DNA from: Apteryx mantelli
Taxonomy: Eukaryota; Chordata; Aves; Apterygiformes; Apterygidae
DNA length: 64,000 nucleotides
Assembly: GCF_036417845.1 (NCBI RefSeq)
Contig: NC_089981.1
Coordinates: 61,442,768-61,506,767 of the forward strand
Direction of reading: 5' to 3'
This document shows positions 15,156-59,780 of this stretch, one piece after another; position 1 is the stretch's first letter; every line of letters starts with the position of its first letter. The notes below the pieces were generated by a model. It was not told the DNA's origin and ran no database searches. It saw nothing but the letters and a program-made list of their open reading frames with translations. Made by a program: the position numbers and the translations under genes.

Positions 15156-18100
15156 CTAGAGAATCTTGTATAAATGTATTTGTTCAAGTGCTTCTCTGTC
15201 CACCTCCTTTTCCAGGTACACATCATAGTTTAGCTGTATCTCTTCTACCCATTGGCTGAGCTGTATATCCGTCTGAAACAATGAAAACAGGTCCTTAAAT
15301 TAACACAATTCCAAGAAACATAACAGGAGTTTCAAGGTCAGTACAACATTAAGAAGGCAAGACATAATAAGAGAGATTAGTCATTCCAAATCATGCAGTA
15401 CTGATAATTCATTTCTGGAAATGTCATTTAACCTAGATAGGAGAAAATTAAAGATAACTTTTTAAAATTATCTCAGTCAGTAGTTTAGATATTTTGCTAG
15501 CATGTTACAACTGCCTTCCATTTGTATTTGCATAAGCCTCAAGCATCCTGATCAGAAGGCAACATTTGGATAGAAGTGGTGAGGGAGCAGCTAACTGTAG
15601 CAGGGAAGAATCACAGGTACTTTCTTGTTTTACACCCATAGGGTATTGTATTAAGACTGCAAAGGGCTTCTCAGCTGTTGTATAACTACTGCCTGCTCCA
15701 AGAAAAGGTCAAATGACACTGCTGCTGCTCCTGGGGCTGAGAATGTATTTCACCCACCAGCATAAAAGTAACGAGTGGTTCAATTTCTCTAAAGCAGACT
15801 ACTGTGGCCAGCAAGCCACTTTATAAATAGCTTTGTCGTGTATTATCAGTGTTTTGTTTCCCAACCAAAGCCAGCCCACATAATTTCCCTAGGCATCATA
15901 CACACAGCAACTGTAACCTATAGAAAACCTATGGCAGAATGGACACAAAGCAGAGGTTGCCCCATCAGAAGCGGTTAGTACTCTTCAACACCACCACCAG
16001 CACAGGCTATTAAACACCTCTGAAAGTTGCACTGTCATTCTGTTTGTTTCCAAGAGCAATTTAAAGCTGTCACTGATCCAAGACACCCAATGGTAATCAC
16101 TTGGTTATGGAGATCACATCTCTCCCTAATCTGTACTTCTAACAGCTCATATTGGCATATTATGAATAATTTTCTATGCGAACAGCAGGTCAGAAGACTG
16201 GATATCTGCAGGGTACAGTTCTTTATTACAATTCTTTCTCCCTCTGTACTGGCAAAACAGTTTGTCATGTTTCAAGGCAACGTGCAAGTGCAGAGTTGAA
16301 CAGAGAAAATATTTCAAGGTTTTGTTTTTAACTAGAGGTTTATAAATACATCTATGCTTCTAAGGCTCTATAGGTTCTCTATACCTGGAAGTAGTCTGAA
16401 AGGAGTGGATATAATTATCACATAACTTACTAACATCATAATACAGCTTTGCTAATAATATTATATTCTTAACCTCACAACTAAGGTATTGTTAATAATA
16501 TATATAATAATACAATAATTCATGCAGCCTATTGAAATAGATTGGGGTTTCCATTTGACAGCTGGAGACAATCAAAGCAGAGGAAGATTAGCTGGTGGTC
16601 AACCCAGAAACAGAATCCAGAGAGTACTACATCTTCTACAGTACACACAAGATCACGTACCTGCCCTCATGACAATACTAGCAAACAGCTAACCTCAACT
16701 ACAGAACTGCCACTTTCAGAGAAAGCAACAAAACATGTTGGCTAAAACTGGCTGAGAGAACTTACCTGGAGCTTTGAGAGAGATTCTTTAAGGCTTGGAA
16801 CTGTTATTAGTAACAACCCTCTTTTCCTTACATTACAAGCAATAAATTCCCAAGCTCTGAAACACATTTTAAAAGTAGGTCACCAGTTTTTAGGAAAAGA
16901 AACATGTTTGATATAGAATAAATTTAACACTTCTAAAATTTAATGACCTAAAAATAGACTAAGCTTAAAAGACTTGCTATACATATTTATCAGTTAATAC
17001 TGATTTATCTGTTTATCTGTTAATACCTCAAATACCTTTGTATGAACAAAAATCAAGTGGCGTATGAAAAAACAGGGAATACATCATCTTAAAATGTTAA
17101 TATTTGAAACACTTCTATTTCACTCTGACACATGCCTGCATGCCATTTTGCATTGTCAACACCTTCACTCTGGACTAGGATTAAACATTGGTACTTTGTC
17201 CCTATAAATTTTTAGTTTTGAAGAACAAAATCCAGTCCCCAATTCCACTGTTTCATTAACAAGTTGCTCTTTACATGCTTATGTTGCAGTTGTGACAAAA
17301 TGCTTCACATAAGATATTAGCAATGGCAGTATTTAAAGATAGCTGCCAGCATTCCTTTTTTTCTAATTTTGCAAGTCAGATCATTTCTCATAGCATGGCA
17401 ATTCAGACTAAAAAGAATTTAATTTCTAGTATTCTTTAGACATCATTTGTCTTCAAGGTACTGCGCAACGTTAAACCACTACCCCTGAGCTCTTCAGGAA
17501 TCGGATGAATTCTCACTCATGTACCTGGAAACAAATCTCCTGGCAATTTGAAATACCCACTACCCTTCACGCATGCATTCTGCCTCTCTGCTCAACATTA
17601 ACTGCTTGATATCAAGGGCAGTGGGACAAGCCTTAGCTTAAACTGCTAGCAAATGTCAGACTGTTGGTTGGGCTGAGACACAGGCATCCATTCCTTTTGG
17701 CTGCCTGTGCTAAAGGCACGGTAATGTCATCAAGTAAAAGTTATTTACATCTTAAATGAACTCAGCTAGATCGGCAAAAGCTCATCTGTGAGTGTCTTGT
17801 ATCAGAAAAAGGACAGTGACAACCTTAATGACGTATCTGTTTGTTATTACTTACTTATGACCATATTAGAAATACCATTAACTGTATTTTGCAATACATA
17901 TATATTAAAGCTCAGATATCCAAAAGTCAGAGCAACCTGTTCTCTTTCTGAAGATTAACCTAAAGTTATAGTAAAGGCATGCTGGCATAGTAATTTCAAA
18001 CCATTTAATGGTTAGATGCTATTTTAACCGTTCAGCGCAAAGATTAAAGGAAAGGTCTGGATAAGCAAAGGAAGAGTGTTTAGTGGGTTTAACAACAAAC

Positions 18101-21100
18101 TACTGCCATGACAACTTAACAGTTAAGTATAACAATTAAATGCAGGCAGTTTAAAACAATTTCCTTATATAATTTATGTATGTGACTTCAGAAAGCACAA
18201 CCTTAAGGTTTTCCATAGCTCACAAGGTTACACGCTCATTGCCAAAGAAATAGATTACTTGTTTGGACACATAGCTTACCTGGCCTGTTCCAGTCTGTCA
18301 AGAAAATATTCAAAGACATTATTCATTACAACAACATCAGCCTTCTGAAGAAGTGAAGCCTGAGTACAGATGTCTGCATGAACCACCTGAAGGAGAGAAA
18401 TTTCACAAGGCATAAATTATTTTAAGAGACAAACACACACTTCAAGTAGACAAGAAGCCTGTCAACATAATACAGCACCTGCTACCACCATTTTGAACCA
18501 GTCATAAAAAGGGATATTTCACTGACTTTGTAGTAGATAAAAACATAAGTAAAATAACCAGAGTAAGTTTTTTAAAAAAATCTCCTAATTAAAATACTCA
18601 ATTCGTTATGTTATGTGAAATGCTGTATCTGACTTTTGATCTAGAACGCTGTGTACCATAGAAAAGGAGCTGATGTATGTGATGTCTGTTACCTTTCACT
18701 TACCTATGTTTTAATCACAAATGTTTACTGTTTTCAGTAAAGGACTTAAGCCAGCCAAAGCTTTTATGAGGCTATCAAAAGGCATCTCACAGGCACAGTG
18801 GGTTACTACGGGATCACAGCTAGAAAAGACTTGACAGACCCAGGCTTGACAACTGAATTCTTGTTACCTATACTGGCACTAGGAATGCTGGAAAGGCAGC
18901 ATGCTCTATGGCACTGGAGGACAGAAAGTGCTTTATCTTACTCAACAACTACTTCTCCAGTCAGCACAGGTGCTGATTTGAATTTCAGAGTCCTTCATCT
19001 ACCTTCATCTACCAAAAAGGATATTAGCACATCATATCATTTTCAAACAGGTGATATTATAGTGGAGGGAGAATATGGATGCTCATTAAGACTCTGACAA
19101 GATGCTTCTGATTTGCTCTTAAACAGGGAGAAATACATCAAATCCTAAATCTGAAGAGAAACATAAATAGGAATATCTTTTGAGTGAATGAGGGAGAGAA
19201 TGCTGATCTGAATGTTACTTGCATTCCCCCCAGTTTTTTGAAAGTACATCCCTATATGTTGAAAATGGTCAGGAAAGCTGAACAACTTCTTGCATTTCCA
19301 GTGTTACCTATTACTGGGTTGTGCTGAGAAGAGACTAACTGGATAGATGCAAAACTCCTCGTTTTGTCAGTTTCTTCCAACACTGGATGGATGTAAAAGA
19401 GAAATCACGATTCTGGCAGGAAAGCTGAATCTTTGTACAGAAGACAAGACACTTTATCTGCTGAAAAAGCATATTTTGCCCACTTGACAATATACCGATA
19501 CTTGTAGAGCACACAAAAGCATGCTGTTCTTATTGCCAGCGGAAACAGATACTACCCATGCAGCTTGCAGGAGTTCAAGTGGGGAAAAAGGCAATGAGTG
19601 GCTGCAGTTTGTAACTCCAGAATGCACTATAGCAAGTTTAGCCAAGTATTTCAATATTAGCTATAACAGAAACAAAACTACTGCTTGTAAAAATTAGACA
19701 TCACAGCATTTCATCTTTGGGAACTATATTGCATGGGTTCTCTGTGAGGGCTCCGACTCAGTAAAACAAACAGCTTTACTTCATTAAACACATTACCATG
19801 CTGAGTTGTCCACCACTGTTTGTAGTGAGAGGAAAGAAAGCAACTGTGTCTTGTACCTCACCCAGAACTGACAGGTTAGTGTTTGAAGGCTCTATCTCAT
19901 TGAGGAATAGGGACAGTTTAGCTGACAGAATGACTGGTCAAATTACTATTTTCACCTCTAGTGTGCGGACATCTGAACTATTTATCTATTAGTTCCTGAA
20001 ATTTAGAGCTTTTTTTAAGACAACTAAAATAGGTGATAATTTATCTTAAGACACTGCAGTGTAAACTGTAGCAGTACAGGAGCTGAGTAATGAACAGCTC
20101 AAACATCCAGGCAGCACAGAAACACGACAGACAGCTCAGGCTGGTATCACCACTGGCAATCCTAAATAAGGTAGGCCCTGCTTGTCAACTGAAGTCCTCC
20201 ACGTAAAGCCACTGCTAGCTGTAGATGTAATGACACACTATAAACTGGGGTAGTAGAGGTGTGGATTTAGGTTTGATGCTGCTGTCCCAGTGCACAGACA
20301 GCAGCCTCCTGCAGAGGGGCAGGACAGACAGCTACAGGCAAAACATGCCACAGCTACCTCTGCCAGAACTCATTTATCAGAACCCTGATTTATTCCATAA
20401 TTTTGAGTGCACCTAAACTGTAAGTGATACTCAAATCGCAGTTTCCAAGGTTAAGGAGATGTTCTACTTTATTCCCTTCTTTTCAAGGGACTAAAATAAC
20501 AGCAGCACTGAATTTCTGTACAAAAAACAGACAGTAATCCTTTACCACAAACACAAATGACTGATGGACCATTCTAACAGGGATTTGTAAAATGGCAACT
20601 TGAGGGAGGAGAAGGTCATCCATCTATAAGCAGCACAAGAAGTCATGGTTAGCACTAAGTTTTCTTAATGCCCTTCTAATGGCATTCCTAACATTTTAGG
20701 CCTCAATTCAGAAAGACACTTTAACACCTGGGAAATTTTGAGTTGTATAGAGTTGTTGAAGTTTTCTTGACTTTTCAACACTGAAACCTTAACTTAAAAT
20801 TAGACTGTAGTTATAGAGTAGGTGTCTGTACTGATTAAACTGATCTAAGCACCCCATTCTCCCCAAACACATACCCATTCCCATTGCTGCATCATTCCCT
20901 CTGTTGGGACAGCACAAATGTGTGTGGCTGCATCATGAGCTAGACCCAGATCCTGCTCCAGCTGAAACACCCCTTTCCTGCTGGCTTCTTTTTCAGCTGG
21001 ATCAGTTCCCTGACCTGTTTGGCTATGTGCTCGCACAAAGGATTGTGCTGGCACGACAGAAGGGGCAGCAACCGATTAAAACAGCCCTGTTGCCAGCAGG

Positions 21101-24100
21101 AATGCACACTGAGCCCTGATGAATACAGGCAACTTCTGAATTGAGGTCTGAAGTTTCTCAAGATCTGTTCAACTGTGTAACTCTTCTCCCAGCATCTAAG
21201 CGTTTGCCCAAATGGCAAACAACACAGAGCAATTTTTATGTACTTTAACAAATCAAATGTTGACCAAAGGAACACAAGAATCACTCATAAAAATTTAGTC
21301 ATTACAGCTATCATTTCACCTGTTGTCCTTCAGGAATAATATTCTAATAAAAATTCAGAATACCTGAAAAATCAATGGTTATTTAAGAAGGGTCTCTTCA
21401 AAGTTTTTCAATTTTGAGACACAGATTATTAACAGTAACTGGATTCTGACTATTTTCCAAGCCAGTGCGTATCTCTGGAGAGGATTAATTTGGGGGCGAA
21501 ATAAAAATCTAAGAACGAAATGTTCAAAGCAATGTGATAACAGGAGTCACATGACTAAACATCTAATGAGACTCAAATAGTAAAGTCCTCAGGCACTACT
21601 TTGAAAGTGTATTATCTTCTTATCTTTACTCTGAAATGAATATTTCATCATAATTACAAGGTGTGAAGGAAGAACAAAAAAGTCTTACAGTAAAGAACAC
21701 ACAAGGCTGAAAAGCATGTACATACATCTCCAGCTCCACTGAATTAACTTGACAGAGTTCTTGTCTGCACCTTCAGTCCCATCACAAGGTGATGCACGTA
21801 TGAACACAAAACATTTGCAAAAAACAAGGTTATGGATAAAAATGGCAGCAGCTGGGATTAAACTGGGCAACCCAGTGATGCTGCTTAACTAGGTGTTAAA
21901 TATTTTAATATTTATTATTTCTTTCCAGCTTTTTATTGGTTATTTTAATTCTCAAGAAATTACTGCACTCAACAGTTTGTGTGAATCCATTCAAAAGCAT
22001 ATGAACATAACACAGGATTAAAGCCAGTACTTCACTGAACATATTCTGCCCACCACCTTTTGCTGGTATTAAAACTAATTGTATCCCACCAAAAGGAAAA
22101 AAAACAAAAAAAACCCCCAAAACCCCAAACATTTTTCTCATTAAAATAGTTGCAGTTATTCCCATAATGGGAGTAGGGGAATGGTTCCCATAATATCAGA
22201 CTGTTTGAAACCCATCTTGTTTTTTAATGTTCTGAGAAAACATACACCAATAGCCTGAAGTCCTTTAGGTGTTTGCAAATCCTACAAAAATCTTTCTGTT
22301 AGTATTAACAAAACACAGAGATTCTATTAATGAACACAGATGCCATCTGTTTTTGTTATTCAAGATACAAACTTTTTATACAGTCAGTTTCGCAGAAGTT
22401 AGTGGCAAACCGGTCATTGATTTCACTGGGAGAATAAGCTAGGATGTAGCTGTTTTGCATGAGCCACCAGGTAAGTCCATCCAGGAAAAAGGCGAAGCAA
22501 TTCAACACGTTATCATATTTTGATAATTGCTGTCTTTCTCTGCTTTGAGAATTTTCTTTTTTCAACAAAAAGCCTTTTTTAAGACCAAAACAAGCAAAGG
22601 CAGAGACTTCTTTTCAGAATGCTGATTTACCAGTCACTCCAATAAACAGGATACCTACTGCATGGTTGGTTAAAAATACACACTGAACCATATATTTAGT
22701 TACCTTTATTCTGTCAATGAACTGGTATTTGGTAATTGTCATTTCTTGCAACTGGCAAAAGTCTGCATTCATTTCTACTCCATACAGTTGGGATGCTGAG
22801 CTATAAAGATAACCCTACATCAGGAAAAGGAAATTTAGTAACTGTGATGCCTTTAAAGTGACTTCAAACATTTCAATTGAAATGGAAAAATAAAACAAAA
22901 GATTAAGAAAGCATTTAAAACAGGAAGTTGAGAAATGTCTTATAGTGGATGCTACATGTTTTTCAGAGCTAAGCCCCTGTTTTGGCAATTATCACTGATT
23001 TCTCATGAATTTTAATAAGAGATCCAAGCTGACAGATCAAATAATAGAAAGAAAAGGAGAGCTGCAACTTTACTTCAATTGCAAAACATGTAAACTGGCC
23101 AAAGAAGAAAAAAAACACTACAAACTAAATTATAAAAATACTGTGAAAGGCAAAGAAGCTCAGTCTTTAAACACTCTGTACCTTTTTTTTCCTTGTAAGA
23201 ATGGAAGAGGAAAATAGCAAGAGCAAAAAAAAAAAAAAAAATCCAGGATTTTACACACTCAAGTCAGTGAAAATGGCTAACAATGTACCCATAATATAAG
23301 GCTATATTTCAGGACAGAATCTTTGTCAGCACCTCTAAGCACTGTATTACTACTATTTTCAAGTGCTTAAATAGGTACATAAGGGGAAAAAAAGATATAT
23401 TATTCCTCAGTAATAAAACCCAAATGCTTAAATAGTTCAGTTTTGGACTGAGATTATGGAAATTTGTTGGAGATTAAAAAAAATAAAAAAATAAAAAAAA
23501 AGAGAAACGGACAAGCACTCCAGTCTATGGGGCTAATGGGGATATTGCTTTAACTTTAACTACAGTTCTGTCTCCAATGAACACCATAATTACAGTTTGC
23601 TAATAATGGGAAAGACAAACTAACAATGTTAAATGTATAGAATGTCAGAGATATCTCCATTTGCAACCTAATTATTGAAGTTTTCTGAAAGCATTCAACT
23701 CTGAGGGTAGAAAAGCAACCTGTGAAGGTAAAGTCACCACTTCTCCAATAGAAGCCAAGAATATGATGAAAAGCAGAACTCTTTCTTTTTTAAAAACTTT
23801 GTTGCTGCTGCATCTTGAGACTATCTTCTGCTATAACAATACAAGCATTTAAGTACTTCAAAACAAATATAATAGCTGGCAACAGTGTTACCATTTAAGG
23901 ATCTGATGCTGCAAATATTTACAAATGGGAGTAACCTTCCTCATTTGAGTAGTCCCAAAATTAGATTATTCAGATGAGTAAAATTACATGCTCAAGTGTT
24001 TCCAAGGCTGAGCCCTAAACAGCCATTGACTTTTGTACGAAAGTTGTAACGTGTGTTTTGCGTTGCTGTTGGCCATATGTTACACCAGCCATGCCAAAAG

Positions 24101-27100
24101 CAATCAAAATTGCACTCAAGTTTCTCAATGAAGTATTTTATATGCATTTTAAAACCCAGAGCAGGACAATATGTTTTAGGAGACAAATTCATATCAAAGT
24201 CTTCCTTCGTATAATTTAACAGTTTGTCAGCTTCATAAAGGAATTTAACATAACTGATCTATATATAGACATGGTCAAGACATAAAGGCCAAGCTTACTT
24301 ATGAAGAAGAGATACAGCAATAATTAGCAAAAGAGCAGCATGTGTGACGGTAATATGCTACCCTGTCGGACAACAGACTTTTCCTCTCCACAAGCAAGAT
24401 CATGTGGAGTTCCTTTTGTGGGGAACAGAACAAGAACTGAAATCACTAGTAAACAGCCCCTTATACTGTTCAGTCAGGCTAGAGATGCCTCTCAGAATGA
24501 CCTGTTCAAGATGGAGTAATGAGAGTAGGCAGTCAGAGAAGAGGGAAAATGTATGTCACAGTAATAAAATACGAATTCCTGTGCTGGAAGTTACCGCAAA
24601 TAGCACTGCACCAAGCCTGGAGCCAACGTCAACCACTACCTTTCCTGTCAGGTCAGGCAGTACATGTTGATAAAGAAACTTCAGTTCCATGAGGGAAAAG
24701 GAATGCGAAATAAACTCTGGGAAATAAGAACAAAACAAAGGTGTTGGGTGGGCAGTACTAACTAACGCGTTATTAATCAATGAAATATAAATCTGAAGAG
24801 CTATCCTCTCTGAAAATCTGTCTGGTTTCTTAACTAAACTAGTATTGGGGACCTTGGAAAACCAGGGTTTGCAGATCTGAGGCAGTCTGCCAAGACGACT
24901 GTCCTGAGGCTGGGTATTCATTCCCTTACATGGAGAATTTTGAAATCCTTCATGAAACTGAATTACCTTTGTCTGCACAGTGACATATATTAAAGAATAG
25001 AAGATACAGTAACTTGGAATCATTTAAGTAAACGTAGAAACATAGTACCTAAAGCTCAACACAATTCATGCAAACTTTTTCATGGGCAGACATATTAATG
25101 GCTTAAATTTCAACTCCAAGATTTTACAGAACTGAACGTTCTTAAAATAAACTACTTCTTCTTCAATGCCTGTGCTATATTGGTGACAGCACTGATCTGT
25201 ACCACACCACACACAAGCTTTAACATGGTATTTCCTACTGCTTTTCAATGTGCAAGAGGAGACTGAGGCTACTGCATGGTTTGCTATGGTACTGTCTTCC
25301 TTTTGCATCTTCCTCTTCAGTGGTACACAGCCCTGACTCTTCCCTGCCCATTTTTTGCGAGCAACTAGTGTCACTCATACACTGCAAATTATTTTGGCTT
25401 ATGTGTCAAGGAGTCTCCTTCCATTGGTTATGGGAAATAGTTCTGGCCTGTGTGCTGCACCAGTCTGAACAAGGTCCTCCATCAGCTGGATGTTCTGTTG
25501 TCCAGCTGAGTGACTGCACACACCAATTTAGTAAAACAGAATTTGTTTCTCATGTTCCCAGATAAGCACTTACCTAAAGATGCAGTCTTGTATGAGCCAC
25601 ACTCTGTGCAGTAGTTCCTACTCATTTTCCCTTCCTCACACAATGAATCAACAAAATCATCATCATAAAGGAATGCATCAACATGAATCATGGGCAGTGG
25701 ATGCTGGTGTATCTGAGAAAAGGAACAAAACCTAAGAAAGGGATAACGAAGTCTCCTAATTTCACTTATACTATTACACAGGTAATCTGACCACCATCTT
25801 ACCTTTCCTCAAATCCCCGACATTCAAGTTTTCCCCCTAGTCAAAAATTACACATCAGAACTCTGGGAATTGTGTGGTAGTAGTTCCTCCTCATCAGTAG
25901 TCTTTCCAAGTCCAATATTAATTGTATAGATTATTTATTTTAGTTATATTTAAATTCAATGTATTTCACAGTTCTGCAGAAGGCATGGCTGGTCTGATCA
26001 AAGTTGGCACTAATTATTCTCAAGCCAGTTTAAGAAACCGTCCAAACAAGTTTTCTATAGATTAACTATGCTGATTAAGAATTAACGGAGTTAAACCATA
26101 GAATCCCTACATGTAAACTAGATCAAATTCCACTGAAATTACCAGTAAGTGAAAGTTGACAATGGAAAGAAAGCTGAAGGTTTGGATAGCTGAGCAGGAG
26201 ACCTGCTGTGAATTCTGTCTCCCTAGAGCTGGCTTTGGTATAGAGGAGGCAATACAGAGCTTTGGTACACAGGAATGGAAGCTTTTTCTTTTCAACTTTC
26301 ATGAGGAGAGGGTAACTTAAATTTAGGAGAAAGGGCAATTTTGCTTCTTAACTTCAGCTGTCTAAAGATTGTCATTTTTGTTTTATGCCTCAATCTAGAA
26401 ACACCCCTGATTAATGAATGTATCATTTTCAGTCAAAAGAATACTACTTGGGATGTTTGCCTTCTCATTTCAAGGGGTATAATCTTCATCCTCCCACTCC
26501 TCTTTCCTCCCTCTCCCAGGATTGTTGCATGTGGCCAATCCTCTATTACATTTAAGAGCCACATACCACTTTTCTGGGGAATGTGTTGACTTTCCACCTA
26601 TACTGGCAGCTCAAGTAGAAAAGGTGCCCTCCCCTCCCACAGGGCTCACAGCCCACCTCTTTCTGAGCCATCGGAATCTGAAAAGAAATGAAAATCGTTT
26701 CTGTGCTGCCCACATTATGGCAACAGCAAAACACTGGTCCTATTAAGGGGGCTGTCAGATTCTGTCATGGAGTTAGTGCTAAAGAAGCACTGTGACAAGT
26801 GTCATACCACACAGAATGAAAGCTATGCCAAATAACTTACGATATAAGTATTAAGAAGTGTGAAACAACTTGTCTGGGGTCACACAACTATGCAGCAACA
26901 GATCTGGGAGCCAAACAGATTTCCTGTATCTCAACCCAGTGCTCATCCTCTATTATTATGTATCTACTAGTAAAACCGAAATAACTGAAATCAGCATAGT
27001 GCCCAAATAAATGATGTGGTTCAGCAATGGAGCCCATAACAATTCGCTTACTTTCTGAATAGCTAGATGTTCTGAATTAAACATTGCCTCAATGGGTAAG

Positions 27101-30100
27101 CGATTCCGCAAATCTTCAGCAATATTTTTGAGCACAACATCATTGTTATTCACCACAAGGTCATCAAAGTCATCTATAAATCAAAACAAACAAAAAACCC
27201 TGAACAATCATATGTAGATCATGTGGACTAAGTGATGACCAGTACAATATAGTTGCAATAAATAAACAATACCAGATGGATAGGGATTTTATTTGAAATG
27301 CATTTTTCAGTCTTTGTTATTTTTTTCCAGCCAATGACAGATTTAGATTGTAATAACTTTGCCACTTAAAATAAATATAGCACTTTGAATCTCAAATTAT
27401 TTTCATATTTATAAATTTATAACTCACATACAATGGTCTGGGCTGCCACCGAAGTGATACTGTTTCAGCTTAAGATATAAAAACATCAAAGATGTTTTTG
27501 AACTATTGGAGAAATTACAAAACCCACAGTTGCCTGAATGTACATAGGTTTTTTTTTGTTTTTTTTGTAAAAGTTTCTTTTTATACATACCATCTTTCTA
27601 ATAAAGTGGTTACAAAACATCAGGGATAATGCACAGTTCAACAGTTCAACTTACAATACTTCTTAAACAACTGAAACTATCAAACTTTCCAATGTGAAAG
27701 AAAATAGGAATGGATGTAAAGCAGTACGTTTTTGCAAAGACACACTGTAAATTCTTGCTGTTTTCCCAGGATACCCCCTGCATTGCCTTAACACCCTTTT
27801 TCTTCTTTTTGATTTAGACATCTAGAAAGCAGACCTCCAAGGAAACTTGGGAGGTCACCAATCCTCTCTTCTTCCAAGGCAGAATCAATCCTAAGTGTCA
27901 CTACTTCTTCAGAGTATTCTTTAAAAATATTGTTAATGACAGACTCTACAACCTCCCTGGGCAATCTATTCCAGTGCTTAACTCACTATTAGAAAGCAGC
28001 ATTTTTCTTGATAAATGATCTAAATTTCCTTTGCCACAATTTAAACCCAATTTACTCCCTGTCCTACTCACAATGGAAATAGCAAACTTTGTTCCTCTCC
28101 TGTATATAGTAATTTTTTACTACTTTGAAGACTTGTGTCCCCTCAGTCATCTCTTCTCTAGACTAAACAAGACCCACTTATTCAGCCCTTTCTTGCATTT
28201 TTCCTAGAACTCTGCTGTCATCACTCCCCTCTAGATCTTATGGACTCTCTCATCCTTTCTGACCTGTAGCATTCAGAACCAGACATATTACTCCAACTAA
28301 AGGTTTTTCTGCACTAAACAGACTTTTCACATCTTGCAGGCAACCTTCCAGCTTCATGTTAGCCCTCTTCCCACAGCATGATGTGCCTAACTGATATTCA
28401 GCTTGAGATCTGCTGTATGGCACCCTGTTCCTTTCCCCTTACACCTTCTTCATAACCAAGGACTAGATGAAATTCCTCTTTTGTTTGGGTATCTCAGTTC
28501 TCTGAGGGCACTGAACTGCTTCTAAACAAAGGCACATCTCAGGTCAAAACTACATACTTGTAAAAGAAACAAAAACCACACAAAAAGCAACCACAAACGT
28601 TAACCCTGAAAAATGCCTCAACCCCATCTATTGATTCTTTTTTAAACATAGACATGTTCATCCTCTCTTCCCCACCCCGCTTCTAGTTTGTTTCTTGTTC
28701 TATTTTGACTGCCACCATGTTGGGCAGAGAGTTTTTTTTACATATTACAGAATCACAGAATGGTTGAGGTTGGAAGGGACCTCTGGAGATCATCTAGTCC
28801 AATCCCCCTGCTCAAGCAGGGTCACCTAGAGCACATTGCACAGGATTGCATCCAGGCGCGTTTTGAATATCTCCAGAGAAGGAGACTCCACAATCTCTCT
28901 GGGCAACCTGTTCCAGTGCTCTGTCACCCTCACAGTGAAGAAGTTTTTCCTCATGTTCAGATATACGTATATCACTTACCAAAAGAAGATCTTATGTCTT
29001 TTTTAGGTGTTTAAAAAACAAAAAGTTAATATTTGTTAGCATTGCTGTCCCAGGTGGGAACACTGGTATAGACAAGCCTGATTGGAAGTAGGTTCAAAAT
29101 AAATCTGTAAGACATGCCAGAGTTGTGTATGCTAGTACACTCAATCTTTCTATGATTTGTGGAGCACAAGCAATGCTAGGAAGAGTGAAAAGTTTTTGGT
29201 ATAGACGCAGAGACCAGCTAAACTATAATTTTAAATACAATATGCTTCTGAAGTGCTTTTTGCTTAAGCACTTCAGTGAGTATAATATGGTTAAATAAAC
29301 CATCATTCATTAGTGCAAGACACACTCTTCTTACAAGGTGTAAATGTAAATGGTTCTTCCAACAAGTCCCAAGACGGACACCAACAGATAATCCCGAATC
29401 CCCCACATTAAGCTGCACAAAGCTTATACTTGACCTTTAAATCAGTTGGACTCCCTTAATGTGTATTCAGTTTATTATTTATTAAATGTATTGCAGAAAT
29501 GCCCAAAGGCCCCAATTGGCACTGTAAACCGACTGGTAGTTGTTATAGTATTGGAAGGGAGCTCATAGTTAAGATCTCCAGAACCTCAGCTCCCAAAGAG
29601 GTGCAAGCTTTGCATAGGGATGGAGGAGGTAGCTGCAACAACAGCAGCATAAACAAAACAGCCGCAAAGCAACAGCTCCAGCTTCTCAGCATTTAAATTT
29701 GAAACCTCTAATGAGCACCCATGCTCTGTTAACCTCACAATCCATCCAACAACTTGCAGACTATTTATGAACGTCCCAGGAGCAGTGAAGTTGATGACTT
29801 TTTTGATTAGCTCGGGGAAGGTGAACAAACTGTTGCTCAAACCTGATGACATTAGGTTTAGGGAAACCTCAGTAAATAATGGGGGGGATCAGACCAGAAG
29901 GAGTATGACAGGTCTTTAGAGTGCAAAGGAGCCAGATCCTGCTGAGGTGGATAACATCTGAGGGAACAAGAGGGGGAAAAAATAGTGATATGGACAGAAC
30001 AACAGAGTAGAAAGATGATATTAGCAGCTGTACAGACTGGTGCCTGTGGGCAATAAGCCCCTACATCTGGCACATGCTTTAAAACAATACTATTACTATG

Positions 30101-33100
30101 TAATAGAGCTCATCCAGCTGTTATACTGCCTGTTAAGAGTATCAAATTCATATACAGAGTTTAATGAAATGCAGGAAGTGTTCACAGACCACCAGGCCAG
30201 CCACACCACATTGCAAATGCAGAACTTCAGCTCCCTTTCTCCCAAAGTTGTTGAGTTAACAGGATCTGTTCCCTCACTGCTTTAGTGACCTTTTCTGGCC
30301 AACAGCAGTGGTGAATGGCTCTACAGGCTATTAAATATTCCAGCTGTACACTAGAGAAATGGATACTTTCAGATATGGAGGACAGGTAGAACATCCAACT
30401 TCCTCAAGTCCAGAATACTCCTTTCCCACCTTGAAAGGAACACTTGTCACAACACTGTAATCCAAGCTACTCTTCTGAAACAACAAAGTATGACACAGAA
30501 AAATCTTTGTAGATACTCTGTACGAAACAGGTCATAACAAAAATCATCTTAAAACACATATAAGCAGCTCAAATGAAAAATTGCTGAAACACAGATACTG
30601 AAAAATAAGTGACCAATGAAGTGCTCCTTCCAACTATCATATTTTAAAGCATAAGCACGTAGGAAGAAAAAGAAAGAGAAAGGGGTTTGAACATATGACT
30701 ACCAAGATCACAAAATGGCAGCTTTAGCAGAAGCTGCATGTAGAATATTTGTATGTTTAGTCAATGACTAAACTCAGATTCTGAGAGTTACCTCACTCTT
30801 GTCAAAGCAAGAAATAGCAGCAGCTACCACAATAACTCATTTATTTTTGCAGTATGTAAATATTTATAGATTGCCATCAAGTATAGAATGCAGGTGCTAA
30901 ATATGAAAAAATATATATATATTTCTGCCTCAGAGTGGTACAGTTTCATCAACTCCACCCTTGTGTTTAACAAATTATTCACTCAGAAGAATCACAGTAT
31001 CACCTTACTATGGATCTTCAAAGAAGAAATAAAAAAAGAATACTATTTTTTACATCATTTTAGTGCCTGTTATATCTATGAAATAGAGAGTATGTAAGCC
31101 AAATTCTGTGTTCATAAAACACACAACTAATGAGGAAAGAACTGCACAGTTCATGAAATACTGCAGGATGAATCATAACCATTTGTTTATGAAGGAAGTT
31201 TGAGTGCATTACTGTTTGTATTTTACTTCAAAAACCGGTTCCACTGGATCTACTCAACGTGCATTTATAAAATTTAATTAACACACTGCAAAAAGCCTAA
31301 TTAACACCCTGGTGTAGCTCAGCCTTTCTACAGCAAATATAACACAAGCTAAGAAAACATCACAAAACCTCACACTGGACAGAAAGCACCGCTACACCAA
31401 CATCTAAACATCCTGGCACTATGAAATACATGACTGAAGAGAAGCAACACATGATTTCCAAATGAAAACATAAGATCACATGTCACAGGGAAAGAAGAGG
31501 ATTTAGCAAAGGTAACCATAACAGCAAAGATCATATGGTTTTCTAGACATAAATCCAGACTCACAGAATTAGAAGCAAATATTAGTATCCATGCTACTTA
31601 ATACAAAGCTAATTTAATCATTCACCTTATTCTAATCATACTGAACAAACAGGTCAAGGAGGAGGCCCCACATCTCTAAAACATTACTACCTTCTTTTTT
31701 GGCTAAACAAATTTAGGACTAATCTATGACCTCAGTATACCAAGTTCTTCAGGCACTCTAAATACATTCTCTACCCCTAAGATACTTAGCAACTGTTAGA
31801 AAGCAACCAGCTTTCCTGGCACATTTTCCAATACACATCATAGCATAGTTTATTAGTTCTTTAACTCTTTTACACTCAGAAATTGAAAGAAGCTTCACAG
31901 TTAAATTTGAAACTAGTTAAGTCACACACCTATCATTAGTTTTCCCCACCATTATTAAAGTTTCAATGACTAACAGCATAAATGCAGTTGTTATTCTTGA
32001 GACTTCCCTCTTGCAGCAGTATCATTTGTCTCAACTGAAAAGTAATTAGTGCCACTTCCTATAACTGGTGATTCATCAGACTACAGGTAACATTCCATTT
32101 TAGTTTATCAAACACCACAGCGTAGTGAAAAAGATTTTGGGTATGGCATCATTTTAACAAAGAAATACATTCCAGTTAACACAGCTCTTCAACAGTTTTG
32201 ATCTCTTCTGAAAGAGTATTCTACCTGGATAAAACACTTATACCAATTTAGATATGAAGCCTTAAACTAAACTACTTTTTTTCACAGAGCAAAGATTACA
32301 CCTGTACTTGTCACATCACAGAAACCCATGCTTTCATCCTTTTAAAGAGACTCACTCTGCTTTAGGTCCACATGTATGACAATAGTACCAAAAGGAAATA
32401 TTAAAGACCATTTCCTGTTAAAGAGTCATTTTTTTCTTTTTCCATACTATTTCATATTCTTGTGCTGTAAAAATCACCGCCTGACAATTTTTCCTAGTAG
32501 GTCTGGAAAAACAATAATGCCTAGGCCATAAAGTACATAATAGGAAAAGCTGGATAAACTTAGTCTGTTGCTAAGAGTACCACAAGAAAGAGTTTCTTCT
32601 CCATATGCAGAACACAGACCCAAAGCAGCATGCCCACCACGCTCTGTCAGAAAGCCTTCCCTCACCGCCTGTTAAGAGCCTGAGCTTAGAGCACTGACTG
32701 CCCTCAACTTCCAAGTCACAAGACCGAATCCTACATCACCTTCTTAAATAGCTGGCTTACTCCCAGCATAAGTCAATGGTCAAGAAAAAAGAAAACATAC
32801 TTAATTATGTGTTGTTTAGCCTTAACTTAGAGGATTTGTGATGGTTTATTATTCAATGATTGTTTTGAATTATATATCACTGTATGAACAATTGGCTATT
32901 CAGACCAGTGAATCACTTTAGCAACATTTAAATATAAAGCTAAGATTTCAGTGAAGTGTACAGAATGGAAAAAGCTTATAAGTTTTTTTTATTTTACTAA
33001 GTTACATGACTGGAAAAAAAAATAGAAGCTAGTATTAGAACAGCCAATTTTAGCCCTGCTGAAAAAGTAATTTTGTATCTTAGACCCTCTGGCAGACAAG

Positions 33101-36100
33101 ACAAATAATAAAGGGGGTTTTTTTAATCACCTTATCTGTACTTCACTGACATGAATCGAGAGATAGGTTTTTGTAATCTGCATTAATAGCTCTAAATACC
33201 GTAAAAATGTTCAGCAATTGCCAGTAAGTATAGTAGTTTGGTGACTTCAATATCAAATTTGAAATGAGGACTCCTGGAAGTTACAAATGTTTTCCTCCAA
33301 TTCCTTCCTGTATCTGTATAACAGACCATCTCTATATGTTAAAATTCTGCTTTCATTGCTTACCTTCTCCAGCATCCATTCTTACCAAATGTCACCTCTC
33401 TTGCTACTGAAGATTCTAGGAGTTTGGGTAGTGGAGGTAAGAGGAGCAGGGAAGAGGGATATGTGCATGCACACATTTATACAGAAGCTATACATCAAAT
33501 GCTGAGACCCAACTGAGTGGGATCTTCAGGGGGGTCTCCCCAAGTGGTTTGAATTAGCTCTTGGGCTTCACCCAAGTTTTCTTAGCCAGAACTTCTGGAG
33601 CATGGTTATTGCAAAAGGATATTAAAGCATTAATCATCCTATTATAGAAAAGTTAAGACACCAAAGGTTCCTGCCTGTTATTCCTTCCAACTCTTATCGT
33701 TTCATTTTCTTTGAGATCTAAGACTAACTCAAAAGAGAAGCTGGAATGCAAGTCACCGTGAAATGACGTACGTTTCACTGCAGTGTGTGGGAAGAGCTGG
33801 CTGATTGCGAAACAGCAAAGCAGCGCTGCTAAGCAGCTGCCTTAAAACTGTAATGTCTTCTTCCATCATACGTAAAGATCTGGAATTTCTAAAATTCACA
33901 AGACCAAAAAAAAAAAAAGACTGCCCATTTCATTCCGGACTTGGACAAAGAAGAAAAAGGATAGCATCTTGCATACACTTACATTCCTGTAAATACTAAG
34001 GAAGATTACTCACAGAAATTCTTAAGAGTGAGAACCTGTTCAATGTTGTCTTAGTTCCACGTCGTACAAAAGAGTCTTTACTTTAGATAAGATACCTTGC
34101 TTTACTAAAAAGTAAACTGGCTCTTCCATGGAAAGATTTTGGGATAACATTCCATGCATTCAGCATATGAGTCAGAAAACATTAAGTAAGCAAATAAATA
34201 ACACTGGGTTTGTGACAACAGAAGGGCAACTTAGTCTAAGGCCTACATAAGCTCCATGTATACTTTACTTGGGAGAGAGGGGGAAGAGAAGAAGAAAGTC
34301 TGACTATAGCTAACACTGGAATCATGCTCATTCCTCCTCAGCTGGAAGTAAAACTATAAGCTCAACATCTTGACAGAAACAGGAACAGGACAGCTGGGGG
34401 CCGGGGGGGGGGGGGATGCCACGATCCACACACCACAGAAAAACAACTCATCTGTGAGGATGCCATTTTGTTTCCATTTATCCTATCCTTGTTTACGTAC
34501 ACTGTTTTCTCATTCAGAATATTACTCCTCTGCCCCTACAATTTTGTTCTTTTCATCAGAGGTTGGTTTCTTTTCTCCATTTACATCAAAGACTGGGCTT
34601 TTAATTCTCTGTGTGGTACAGAGATCAGGTAACTTTTCAGCATGTCCTGTAAAACTGTTTTCTTGCTGCACAGAGAAACCCCAAATTCCCTAGCTGTATT
34701 CAGGGTACAGTAGTAGAAACCTCAATTCCCACTCCTCACCATCCTCTGTCCAACCAGTACTAATTACTACTGCAACATCCAGATATTACACTGAGAAGGA
34801 CAGTATAATTACTCAAACACAACAATTCCGTGGGGGGGGAACCCCACAATAAAAGTTACTGTTGGTATGCAGTCACAGAAGCAGCTCAGAGAAGCAGTAT
34901 GAAGAGAGGGATCAACAAGAGTGTTGTTTTGGGGACATTACCCAGAACATTTACAACTCTGGGGAAATTCCAAAAAGAATAAAGGAATGTGACCTGCTGG
35001 ATAAACACCTCTGCTTACTTACTGTTCAGCACTGCAGGAAAATAAAACCACTAAGAGAGAGAGATCTTTCTCTAGACCTGTGCTCACTTGGTGCAAAGAA
35101 AAAGAAAATGGAGATATACCAGAAAGACATAGCCATTCAGAAAAATACAAACAGGTTAGGTATAGGCTAAGGAACAGACTAATGACCTAATGAATCAATG
35201 AAATGTATCTTAATTGGATGGTAATGAGAAATTGTTACAGATCTGCACAAAATTTTCTAATCTCCTCTCCTCTACCGTATACCTATATGCACATGTATAT
35301 ACACATATGGGGGGGAGAGGGAGACACGGGACTGCAGCACCAAATGATAGCATAAAAATTGTGCAAATGTTAGTACTTTTGCTTGGACATCACAACCAAC
35401 AGGTTCAGAAACTACTAACTTCTACAGGCAGTAGCATGTGACCAAATTTTATAGGCTCTGAATTTCTCCACAAACCTGGCACTCTGGGAAATAAAGTTTG
35501 CCTAAGTCCCACATGCCCCAAACCACACATATAGGAACAAATACGGTTGCCTACTGCTTTTTACTGCATCAGCACTTGGCAAGATACTATCACAAACTTT
35601 AAAGAACTACAGATGCCCAAAGTGCAGCTTTATTTCTCAGAAAATAAATCAATAGCATCCAAACAGGACATTCAAGAAAAATATTTTTTTTCTGCAAAAG
35701 AGAAGGAAATGTAGTATAAATGAGATTAGATAAAGATTCAGATCTGGCCTATCAAGAAGGTGGCTACAGAGATTAAATTATACATATTACTTTAACTGCT
35801 TGATTCTTGTTGCCCTGTGTATCCAGTCTATTCTGTCCTCCAATCTGCAGCATATGATCTAAAAATCTATTGAATGGCAACTACAAAAAACACTATGTTA
35901 GTTTTAAGATGATTACCTATAGTGAAGCAATAGCAATTAGCACTGATACAGACTTAATACAAAAATAGAATGGCACAGATTGCCCAATACATCAAGTATT
36001 AAGTAATTCAAAGTTTGGAACCTGAACCACATTGTAGTTTGTATCTTAATTATAAAGAGTAAATATGAAGAAAGAATATATAGTTCCTTTCATTAAAAGA

Positions 36101-38952
36101 CTGGGCATGGATTTGTATCATTAAAATTCAGAGGAAAAAAAAATTTGCAGGCTCATAATCTGATACAGGCTAGGGACTGTGTCATACTCATCTTTCACTG
36201 AGGCTGTCTAGCTATGAGAATTTTTGGAAGCACAAAAAGAAAAATTAAAAAAATTACTGATTGAAAAAGGACTTCTGCAAGTCTACATAAACCATACCAC
36301 TGGCTAAAAATTACTCTGGTAGATAAAAGGTAAAGCTTGATGATAGGATCAAAGTGGATAAAATAGTAAGCACTCTTTTCCTTACTGAAACAGATCAGCA
36401 TTTTCAAGCTTTACTAGTAAATTCCCATGTGCTTTACTGTATCTATTAATGAGTCAAAGAACAGTAAGCTGCGAGACAGCCATATATGCACATGACAAAC
36501 TAATATGTTAGTCTAGAAAGACCTGTAACAGTTTACTTAGATGAACAAGCAATATGATTGCATATGAAATTCAATTATGCCTGTAAATTAGAGCATATTG
36601 GAAGGAAGAAAAATACTTCTAACACGATTATTTACAGTAACCCATGCACCATTTAGCAAGCACAGCATGCTACTGCATCCAGACAAAAACTCATAAAGGA
36701 AGGGATGAAATACTGTTTTGAGCACTTTGCTCTGCCATTATGTGTATACATATGTAGATACATATACATGTACACACAAACACACACAGATAACAAAAAT
36801 GTTTAGTTACAGCAGTTAACACTAACTAAACCCATTAAGCTTCAGCCTTCAAGTCTTAAGGAGTCCCATCACATGCTCTGTGAAGGCTGTCTCGTAGATG
36901 CTCTGAAACATCTGACAACGTCTGTCCTAAGAGATAACAGATCGGGGTGAGAGCTATGCAGCCATCCAAGGATGATCGATTCTGTGTTCCTAACTGGTTC
37001 TTTTCTTGTAAAGCCAGCAGAGGGAGCAACTCGATCACAAAAGGATCTTTCCCGACTCTCCATTTTAGTGGCTGGGGGAGCAAATAAACTATCTAAGTGC
37101 AAGCCACATGGAAAGTGACTTTACAGCCACAACCCTTCAGATGTGAATAGCTGCCACTTCCACGTGCCACAGCTGGCCTTTGTGTCCCCATATATTTGCT
37201 TATCGGTTTCCACAGTGTTTTACACTAAAGCTGAGGCGCTGCATACACCAGTTTTTTCAATTACTGGTATCAACACTGCTGGAACAAAAGAACTGAACAA
37301 TAACAATCCTAGCACATCAGAGCATGACTTGAGGACATAACACATCATATAATAATTTTTTCCACTAACAGCATCATCACCAGGGAGTGGGTTTACCATC
37401 CCAACAGGCAACGATTAATAAACAGGACATATACTCATAAGCTGCCTGAGACACTGACTGGATCAAAGCATTCAGGGGCTTTCAAGACCCCCATCTGCAA
37501 TGGCAAAAATTAAGTATAACCACAGACTAAGCAGCATTTTAGTCACTTTATTCAGCATAGCACTATATGCCTACAGCTTTAGTGCACTTTGTATATTCAT
37601 ATTTTCTATATCATCTTTTTATTTGTGCAGTTACAAAATTTAACAGCTTGTACACTGACCCACATTTCCTTCCTTCAGCTGTGTTGAGATGCTTGATTGC
37701 AGCATGTTGATGAAATTACACCGAGGCACATACAAGAAAATAGACAGAAAGCTATGTTAACTTAAAATGACATCAAATGGGGAAAGAAGTACTTGCAAAT
37801 TAGCTCAAACCACTATTTTCCAGCTGCTGAAAGATTGCTGTGAAGATGTGTGAAGCTGAACAAGACAAGACTAGTGTATAAAACTCTTTAGATATACCAG
37901 GAGCAGAGTGCCTCCATATAACCTCTGGCATTTCATTCTGGAAAGTTTAAGAGGTTATGGCCCCAGCTGTCTGTCCTGCTCTTCTGCTGTAAGTTACTGC
38001 CTCTGCAGCACTGCTGGCAAAACGAACAGGAGCCTGTACCTCAGCCACTATACTCATAACCCAAAGCATCCACTTATGCTACCATCATTTTCAGTCCACC
38101 AGATATGACAGTCCACCAACTATGGCAGCTGAGACACACATGCCTGCTTCAACTGACACTGCTACAGGTGTGATAACGTCTGGTTAGAGTTGGAGAGGAC
38201 AGGTAGCATCAGGAAGCCCTTTACTTGTCCCAGCAAACTGACAGAGTTCACCTGAGAAACCTACACTTACAACTCCAAATTGACCATACTAAGGGTGACG
38301 AAAACCAGCACCGGTGAGCACGAGTGCCCGGGCGGGACCCAGCCGACGGCCTAGCTACAAGCGGACTCCAAGCAAGGCCTGGAGGTGACCCCCCTCCTTC
38401 CCCGGGCCGGGCCCCGCCGCGCCCCGGGGAGCGGGGCGGCCGCCGGCGGCGAGGCACCCCGGCTCGGCCGGGCCTTCACCGCCGGCCGGGCCTTCAGCGC
38501 CGCCGAGGAGCCGCGCGCCACCGGCCCGCAAGGGGCGCGGGGGCGGCGGCCGCTCCCGCCCCGCCCGCCCCCGCGCCCCGGCACGGCACGGCACGGCCGA
38601 GCCCCTCCTGCGGCAAAGCGCGGGGTGGCGGGGGAGGCGGCGCGCGCCCGTTAAACGGGCGCGGACCCGGAGGCCGTGGCGGAGCGACACCGGCCAGCGC
38701 CAGGCCGCCGCCTCGCCTGCGGGGCTCTCCCCGAGCCCGCCGCTGGGCGGCCGGCGAGGACACCCCCGCTCCGCCCGCCGCGCTCACCGGGGCCTGCTCG
38801 AGGGGCCCCCGCGGAGCGGGGCCGAGCAGGGCCGGGCCGGCTGGGCCGCGCTTACTCGTGGTGCGCATCCAGTGCAGCAGGCGGGGCAGGTCCGCGGCGC
38901 GCGCGCCCCGCACGGCGGCCAGCACCGCGCCCCGCGCCGCCGCCAGCTCCAT
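15156..38952 (-). CDS. Eight-exon class I methyltransferase-like protein, 301 aa
   Basis: I do not recognise a named gene. Coding exons in transcript order are 38952-38856, 27173-27052, 25712-25574, 24716-24595, 22814-22704, 18386-18280, 16856-16766 and 15272-15156. They sum to 906 nt (301 codons plus TAG); all seven introns are GT-AG and every phase matches. The C-terminal two thirds carries class I SAM-methyltransferase signs: motif I VVVDVGSRLG (146-155), an acidic residue ending strand 2 (YGVEMN, E174), VVHAD (198-202), ADVVVMNNVFEYF (213-225) and strand RGLLLITVP (245-253). The VNN-like motif and YGVE recall the DOT1 fold, but the protein is far shorter than DOT1L and substrate is unknown. 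Residues 98-111 hold C98, C108 and C111 (CTEC), a possible partial metal site. Residues 34-119 are acidic and unassigned. The start MELAAARG has G at -3 and +4; the frame stays open upstream to 39228, so a longer N-terminus is possible. The fold is fairly sure, function is not. Confidence 0.85.
23226..23243 (+). repeat. Poly-A and A-rich tracts
   Basis: A long A run lies here, and a second A-rich tract with interspersed T (AAAAAAATAAAAAAATAAAA) is near 23475-23500. Both lie in an intron of the methyltransferase-like gene. Similar runs occur near 41954-41970 and 45239-45253 in SRP54 introns. Confidence 0.8.
27835..28500 (-). mobile_element. Decayed CR1 LINE fragment, longer 3' part
   Basis: Phrases such as 'ctctacaacctccctgggca', 'attccagtgctta', 'gtcatctcttctctagacta' and 'tattactccaactaaagg' follow in order the reverse complement of the CR1 3' region (end of ORF2 plus 3' UTR). 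They carry many substitutions and indels. It is older than the neighbouring copy at 28747. Both edges are approximate. Confidence 0.75.
28747..28960 (-). mobile_element. CR1 LINE 3'-end, well preserved
   Basis: It starts with ACAGAATCACAGAATGG, the reverse complement of the CR1 terminal octamer repeats. The familiar 'ggaagggacctctggagatc' and 'gggcaacctgttccagtgct' blocks follow, ending at 'cctcatgttcag'. It is a 5'-truncated insertion of about 210 bp in minus orientation, inside intron 1 of the methyltransferase-like gene. It lies 250 bp beyond the older copy in the same orientation. Confidence 0.95.
29248..29276. repeat. Hairpin with 11-bp perfect stem
   Basis: The arm CTGAAGTGCTT (29248-29258) is followed by a 7-nt loop and the exact complement AAGCACTTCAG (29266-29276). 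The stem does not extend further, which makes it too short for a normal pre-miRNA. Confidence 0.85.
34403..34415 (+). repeat. G13 homopolymer
   Basis: A run of 13 G follows GGGGGCC. It is likely polymorphic and prone to sequencing error. A shorter G-rich tract (GGGGGGCGGGGGGG) lies at 46135-46148. Confidence 0.9.
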
Positions 38953-39002
38953 CGCGCCGCGCCGCCGCGGGGGGGCGCCCCGCCCTCTCCCGCCGGGCCG
39001 GC

Positions 39003-39297
39003 GCGCATGCGCGCGGAGTCCGCACACCCGTGCCGGGCTGCCCGCGGCGGCACAGAGCCACGCCCTCCTCTGCGCGCGGGAAGCCCACCCGCTCCTTCGT
39101 GCGCATGCGGAGAGGGCGCCACGGCCTGGCGTCTCTGTGGAGATCTTGTGCGCATGCCTAGAAGTTAAGCGTTCTTCCCCCTCCGCGCTGGCCTTTAAAA
39201 GTCTTCTTTCTGCGCATGCCCAGATCATGTTTGCCCGATTGCATGTGCGTAGGCGGTGCAGCGCTTGAGCCTCGCCTCTCCCTTCGATTGCGCATGT
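39003..39297. promoter_or_regulatory. Cluster of five NRF-1-like sites
   Basis: Matches to the NRF-1 (alpha-PAL) consensus core GCGCATGC are at 39003-39012 (GCGCATGCGC, perfect palindrome), 39101-39110 (GCGCATGCGG), 39150-39159 and 39211-39220 (both TGCGCATGCC). A weaker TGCGCATGTC is near 39288-39298. They lie between the start codon of the minus gene and the probable SRP54 start region, a typical place for housekeeping promoters. Binding is inferred, not shown. Confidence 0.7.
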
Positions 39298-39399
39298 CCA
39301 TGGGGAAGTCCCGGCCGCAGGCAGTACTGGGCTGATGCGGCCCTGTTAAGGTGGCGCGCGGAGTGTCCCGGCGTTTTGCAGGGTTTCTCAGGGGGCGGA

Positions 39400-39636
39400 C
39401 ATGCGGTTTCGCGGAGACACCCTTAACGAGGAGCCTCGCGGATGTCCTGGAAGCGGAAGCGCGGCGGGGCCGTGGGGGTTAGGGCGAGTGGTGACGTTTC
39501 GCTGGCCGGCGGAGAGCGGGTCGCGGCGGCCCTTGGTGCCGCGGAGGTGCCGGGGGTGGCGGAGGCCGAGGAGCGTCGCGCGGCCCTTGCCGCGGCGGGC
39601 TGGAGGGCCGCGCGCAGGCCCCGCGCTGCGCGCCCG
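39400..39636 (+). other. SRP54: Probable non-coding first exon of SRP54
   Basis: The donor CCCG|GTGAGTG at 39637 is the best 5' splice site downstream of the NRF-1-like cluster within the CpG island. The first coding exon starts after an acceptor at 43251-43253 with 31 nt of 5' UTR, so an upstream non-coding exon is required; this matches the usual SRP54 gene structure. The transcription start is a guess. Confidence 0.55.
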
Positions 39637-40013
39637 GTGAGTGCCCGCGCCGCCGAGCGACCCGCGCGGGGTGGGAGCTCTCCCGACGGCGGCTTCCTGG
39701 GCCCGGCGGCGCTGCGGCGGGGCGGGCGGCCGCCGTCCTGCCGGGCCCTGCTGGCGGCGGGAAGCAGGCGGCGGGCTCCGCGCTGCGGCGGCTGGCTCCG
39801 GGCGGGGGCCTCCGTCTGCCTCGGGCTCCTGGGAGCCGCTGCCTGGCCGCCGCCCCGGCCCCGTGGGAGCGGAGCTCTGGGGCCCCGAGTGCGGCCCGGG
39901 TTGCCAGGACGGGTTCCTCCTGCCCGCGGCCCGCTCTGGATGCACGGGGAAAAGACGGTGAACCTGACAAGTACTTAAGGATGTTTTCTCAGTGTTTTTT
40001 TTTTTTTTTTCCC

Positions 40014-43263: not shown

Positions 43264-55331
<12,068 letters not shown>

Positions 55332-58600: not shown

Positions 58601-59780
58601 AGGATTTTCAATATTGACACTTGATAAATCTGTTAAATTTGTCTAAGCTGCCAATGCTAATTGTTCTGTGAAAGATTAACCTCAGTATTACTGCACAGCT
58701 GCTATCACTGCAGTACAAGCAAGGAAGAACAATTTAGCTGGTGGCTGATTTAATATTGACTTCTAATAGATGTTAACATCTTTCAATCAGTACTTGCTAA
58801 GTAGGATTTAGACTTAACTAAGGATGAGATGTATTTATATGTCCTTATACTACACTAGTTTTTTCTTTGCAGTTTTAAGTAGTATTTCTTTAGCAGAGAT
58901 GCTTAGGCATGAAGTATCAAAAATAGTAATTTAATTATTGTCAGGTGTGTTTCTGTAATTATACATTTGATAGTATATTCTGTGAAATACTGTGGCAAAC
59001 AGATTCATAAGTCATTTTCATAAGGGGAATTGCTTTTCTGCCTTTACAAGTACAGTATAATTGTACAGGTGGTACATCTCTGTTGTGCTCTCTGTGGGAC
59101 CTTAATTTGTCATGTGATCTGGATAATGCTTTGATACAACTAAGAAATGGTTTAAGAGCCCACCTGTGCTACAAACTGTAATTCTTTGGAAGCTGTACTT
59201 AGTATAGGACTGAAGGACAGCTCTTCCTATTGCACATAATTGCATTGCATGTTACCGCCATTGCATCCTTACTTTTAAAAATAACAATTCGCTCTTCCAT
59301 TCCATAAAAAAGATGTTTTGAACACTTCCTTCTCCAACTGCCTTCTGTAGCAGTTAGGAGGTGGCTAATGCACCTTTTGCCTAGGTCAGCTCTGGCCACA
59401 GGTGCTCAGCAGTGGGGAGGCCTCAGCGCACATTTAGGGGAAAGAGGTCAGTGAGAAGGAAGCTTCTATCCACCGAGGTAAAATCCTGCTCTTCTGCATT
59501 CTGTCCAGGCAACAGACTGTATTTATCAAATAAAAGGAGCGGCTCAGGTGAACGTGGTGTAGGAGCATGAGGCCAGGGCGGCGGAGCCCCAGTGAGCAGC
59601 TCAGACTGGGGCCCGTGTGAAGGGGGCTTGCTCTGGCAGCTGGCCTCTTCCTTCGTGTCCAGGCGTCTTTCCTGGTTCAGATCAGCACTGTACTGTGGAG
59701 AGAGGATCAAAATGATCAAAATCCATAATAGTTCTGGCATTCTCCTTGCACAGCGCTGCATGACTGCTAGCAGTGGGTCC
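55700..59780. other. Gap between SRP54 and the next gene
   Basis: AT-rich non-coding sequence, the first part perhaps a long SRP54 3' UTR. No family-level coding match was found. A 56-codon open frame without an early ATG around 57766-57930 (plus) and a signal-peptide-like frame at 59740-59423 (minus) are noted among the findings. No repeat family was recognised. Confidence 0.6.

Follow-up and report, generated by a model that had tools for sequence, protein, structure and literature searches.

An eight-exon kiwi gene beside SRP54 encodes a predicted class I methyltransferase with a fold closest to DOT1L

Introduction

In DOT1L and PrmA, the asparagine or aspartate that ends strand 4 is a key residue facing the target lysine (PMC10238732, in the available part of the article), and an inventory of seven-strand methyltransferases built on human genes comprises 120 members (PMC11514484, likewise in the available part). 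A family that is kept from fungi to rodents and is apparently absent from humans would fall outside such human-based inventories and screens. Here we describe a member of this ancient family, encoded on the minus strand of a 64,000-nucleotide stretch of the kiwi Apteryx mantelli (contig NC_089981.1, positions 61,442,768 to 61,506,767; hereafter, the window) next to SRP54. Judged by sequence comparison, its eight exons are a genuine vertebrate gene of the 2700097O09Rik group, and the predicted class I fold of its product is closest to that of DOT1L. With a probability of roughly 0.45, we consider that the product would be an active stand-alone protein methyltransferase, probably lysine-specific.

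The relatives of this protein are found in databases as RIKEN cDNA 2700097O09 gene (rodents) or zgc:109986 (paddlefish and elephant shark), and most of the others listed are called “uncharacterized protein”, “hypothetical protein” or “methyltransferase type 11 domain-containing”. The mouse gene 2700097O09Rik maps to chromosome 12, in the vicinity of Eapp and Egln3 (PMC3633429). Its deletion is among the 44 homozygous mouse mutants whose transcriptomes were studied (PMC4739719); since homozygous deletion mice were sampled for tissue, the animals survived at least until then. Further mentions are in a quantitative trait locus table, a single-nucleotide polymorphism table and an expression table, and the open-licence literature found, available in part, gives no function for it, and no paper on zgc:109986 was found there. 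As far as these searches show, the gene is thus already in databases, yet unstudied. The preliminary description of this DNA had not recognised it as a named vertebrate gene; its interpretation of the gene is supported in part.

Structure and reality of the gene

The gene was rebuilt from the letters of the window, with junction ends and phases checked, and comprises the following exons:

38856..38952, minus strand: exon 1, start codon and residues 1-32, within the CpG island adjoining SRP54
27052..27173, minus strand: exon 2, N-terminal helical part, from the window reconstruction and alignment with relatives
25574..25712, minus strand: exon 3, HVDAFLYDDD segment and CxxCGS (C108, C111)
24595..24716, minus strand: exon 4, FISHSFS segment (H124) and motif I, VVVDVGSRLG, which would bind S-adenosylmethionine (SAM)
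22704..22814, minus strand: exon 5, YGVE motif (E174)
18280..18386, minus strand: exon 6, strand 4 and NNVFEYF (N219, N220)
16766..16856, minus strand: exon 7, from the window reconstruction
15156..15272, minus strand: exon 8 and stop codon, from the window reconstruction

Read from 38952 down to 15156, the exons join with compatible phases throughout, all seven introns run from GT to AG, and the product is 301 residues long, followed by a stop. The chain proposed in the preliminary description was therefore reproduced in full, and its motifs VVVDVGSRLG, YGVE and VVVMNNVF were located in the product. The N-terminus encoded by exon 1 can be aligned with mammal, turtle and fish relatives. Three bird models (P0025, P0027 and P0029) have first exons other than exon 1 of the window, a hint at alternative promoters.

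A search with the 301-residue product, which had been suggested as a check, returned 695 matches at E <= 0.001 (the best 120 were listed). The top match among those listed is a California condor protein with 94% identity along the full 301 residues, and when exons 2-8 are compared, the protein of Apteryx rowi (P0025) differs by one residue and a 15-residue gap. Full-length similarity extends to the 2700097O09Rik orthologue group: the protein of the rodent Nannospalax (P0078) is 69% identical to the window protein over nearly the whole length, and the zgc:109986 protein of Polyodon (P0117) 64%, whereas that of Callorhinchus (P0148) was compared with the bird orthologue P0001 and is 61% identical to it, again over nearly the whole length. 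No important difference from the window protein was seen in either named group, the house mouse record itself being outside the rows listed.

A protein of 273 residues with a bird-like sequence (P0011) is encoded on a contig of only 1021 nucleotides, and three others (P0081, P0096 and P0101) on contigs of 1043, 1482 and 1221 nucleotides; all four carry their residues in the same unbroken order that takes 24 kb in the window. Spliced transcripts would be the best account of these proteins, with retrocopies as another possible source, and the window gene itself is very likely spliced. That exon-like pieces had come together by chance, or that the gene is dead, is hardly credible: no point in support of either was found, the frame is open, the motifs are conserved, and both the relative at 94% identity and the transcript-sized contigs speak against it. 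A chance exon chain was rejected on that full-length relative, and full-length relatives settle that the gene is real.

Fold and conserved residues

In the predicted structure, the protein has both the class I seven-strand Rossmann-like fold and the fold of the DOT1 catalytic domain. The glycine loop of motif I and the acidic end of strand 2 are found in all rows of an alignment of 47 sequences, in which D149, G151, S152, R153 and G155 of motif I, as well as E174 of YGVE, the acidic residue ending strand 2, are invariant. In the model, strand 4 covers residues 215-219 and ends at N219, and the counterpart of Asn241 of DOT1L at this position would be either N219 (44/47 rows) or N220 (47/47). 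The NN pair is replaced by HN in three rows and is followed by V/I/P/A and F.

The preliminary description had seen a hint of a DOT1-like branch, and had suggested comparing a structure prediction with DOT1 and METTL folds. The hint held for the fold, which is predicted to be nearest to DOT1L, with DOT1 standing above METTL5 in the Foldseek list, but not for the profile: with a Pfam cut-off of 23 bits for DOT1 (PF08123), the window protein scores 13.1 and P0001 14.2 bits, and filing in that family was rejected for this reason. A divergent member (P0170) reaches 24.2 bits. In NCBIfam, the two proteins searched gave only matches far below the cut-offs. Identity in the listed structural alignments is 12-15% with DOT1L and a bacterial DOT1-like methyltransferase, and 14% with the archaeal aKMT (5fa8), whose chain of 156 residues leaves about the first 60 residues of the window protein without a counterpart. 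Unlike DOT1L, the window protein is small and acidic, and has a CxxC segment ahead of motif I. METTL5 and PH1948 match its SAM-binding core at the level of sequence profiles (E 0.001-0.003); we take METTL5 to have an RNA substrate and an NPPF-type motif.

Ahead of motif I, a segment with VDxFLY, CxxCGS and SHS is conserved nearly as strongly as the SAM site. C108, C111 and H124 are each found in 46 of the 47 rows, with P0172 as the one row lacking both cysteines, and a metal site formed by this segment is our conjecture; C98 (37/47) and H83 (38/47) vary, so that a set of four metal ligands was not found. CobW proteins are zinc chaperones, and one relative, encoded on a 3988-nucleotide contig (P0171), carries a CobW C-terminal domain (PF07683, residues 121-206, E 8.7e-7) ahead of the methyltransferase, an arrangement that would fit a metal-bearing CxxC segment.

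A bird form without motif I

Among 182 fetched proteins, 16, under 16 bird species labels (including kiwi, emu, guineafowl, quail, parrot, woodpecker and sparrow), lack exactly VVVDVGSRLGAVLFA or its counterpart and are joined as TGK|G[YC]LY. These short forms are annotation models. In the window, the gap corresponds to one stretch of exon 4:

24595..24639, minus strand: 45 bases that an internal donor would skip, equal to the gap VVVDVGSRLGAVLFA of the bird protein form

The internal donor, AAG|GTAGTG at 24640/24639, is in frame and lies 45 bases before the donor of the full form, GCG|GTAACT. By a donor frequency table, this pair has the lowest scores (4.6 and 5.9), against 6.2-12.6 for the remaining six donors. 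Strand 1 and the SAM loop would be missing from the short form, which would then lack SAM binding and could act as a dead partner of the full protein. Motif I is also missing from two further bird proteins (P0082, with altered letters, and P0113, with a larger gap) and from P0160 and P0165 (lizard and fish).

Distribution across organisms

A length-restricted search favouring longer relatives gave 54 matches, all of them listed, which include a hemichordate, a sea cucumber, an amphipod, bees, parasitoid wasps and nematodes (Gnathostoma, Caenorhabditis), as well as the fungi Cunninghamella (Mucoromycota) and Bifiguratus. Judged from these sequences, the family is conserved from fungi to birds. 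No confirmed relative was found among 134 and 101 pattern matches in prokaryote contigs or among 33 and 74 in viral contigs, the patterns being narrow.

With the mouse lemur protein as query, the labelled primates in the best 120 of 788 matches are Microcebus, Propithecus, Nycticebus and Otolemur, all four being strepsirrhines. Labels of monkeys, apes, tarsiers or humans are absent from these 120, from the best 120 of the 695 matches and from all 54 matches above, although clustering at 90% identity may conceal members and the searches did not cover any haplorhine genome. Strepsirrhine labels only, together with the lack of a human-derived gene name, suggest a loss in haplorhines (tarsiers, monkeys, apes and humans), which we consider likely.

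Proposed activity and alternatives

Protein lysine methylation appears the likeliest activity because the asparagine at the end of strand 4 is conserved and has a precedent in DOT1L and PrmA (PMC10238732, as far as the available part goes). SAM would sit between motif I (DVGSRLG) and E174, N219 or N220 would hold the substrate nitrogen beside the methyl group in the manner of Asn241 of DOT1L, and the N-terminal segment with VDxFLY, CxxCGS and SHS, perhaps metal-bound, would form a lid governing the choice of substrate. The acidity of the whole protein (isoelectric point, pI, 5.1) makes nucleosome binding of the DOT1L kind unlikely.

An enzyme for tRNA or rRNA, in which the Asn pair would be catalytic motif IV, as in METTL5 or TrmR, and the CxxC segment would bind RNA, seems to us rather unlikely, given that the NPPF/NPPY-type motif that we presume for such enzymes is absent, with NN or HN in its place, that all 11 sequences computed are acidic (pI 4.5-5.9), unusual for an RNA binder, and that the best DOT1 and aKMT structural entries score higher. 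A small-molecule or lipid substrate is quite unlikely, even with Methyltransf_11 and Methyltransf_12 matching all 46 members of a first alignment at E <= 1 and with farnesyl pyrophosphate (FPP) methyltransferases, COMT and SgvM among the best Foldseek matches. More doubtful still is a SAM sensor without methyl transfer, similar to SAMTOR, a seven-strand SAM-binding protein for which no methyltransferase activity was detected (PMC11514484, in its available part). The predicted helical N-terminal part joined to a SAM-binding domain and the bird form without motif I would suit such a sensor, but from fungi to birds the conservation of the presumed catalytic asparagine and of the lid residues roughly equals that of the SAM motifs, which exceeds what sensing by itself would appear to need.

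Returning to the lysine methyltransferase, its broadest version would make the family a third protein lysine methyltransferase lineage beside DOT1 and aKMT: an opisthokont-wide, metal-lidded enzyme of DOT1 fold, lost by haplorhine primates, with its mark in mice and birds but not in humans, and with a conserved splice switch in birds yielding a dead partner. Taken as a whole, this is unlikely. If the lysine activity is true, mice and birds would carry a methylation mark that humans are without, which matters for mouse models, and the existing homozygous 2700097O09Rik deletion mice (PMC4739719, in its available part) make the substrate question directly testable.

Neighbouring genes and CpG islands

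The divergent arrangement with SRP54 given in the preliminary description was confirmed, SRP54 being placed on the plus strand by tblastn:

43285..55328, plus strand: SRP54 coding exons, divergent neighbour, 14 tblastn stretches
38250..39999 (about), no strand: CpG island, GC 0.66-0.86 and CpG observed/expected 0.83-1.08 in 250-base steps

Lying between both genes and containing exon 1, the island may serve the pair as a putative two-way promoter. No Rfam family reached the gathering threshold anywhere in the window; the human long non-coding RNA SRP54-AS1 is presumably located at the corresponding place.

The N-terminus of BAZ1A was not found within the window by tblastn. In two fish records (P0151 and P0157) the methyltransferase continues into a BAZ1A-type WAC domain, probably through merging of neighbouring genes or read-through, and a cotton rat record of the methyltransferase protein bears a BAZ1A-derived name; together, these suggest that the same-strand adjacency of the methyltransferase gene to BAZ1A is old. 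Beyond SRP54, a second CpG-rich stretch at 59001-61000 (GC 0.54-0.65, CpG observed/expected 0.62-1.03) probably serves the following gene as its promoter.
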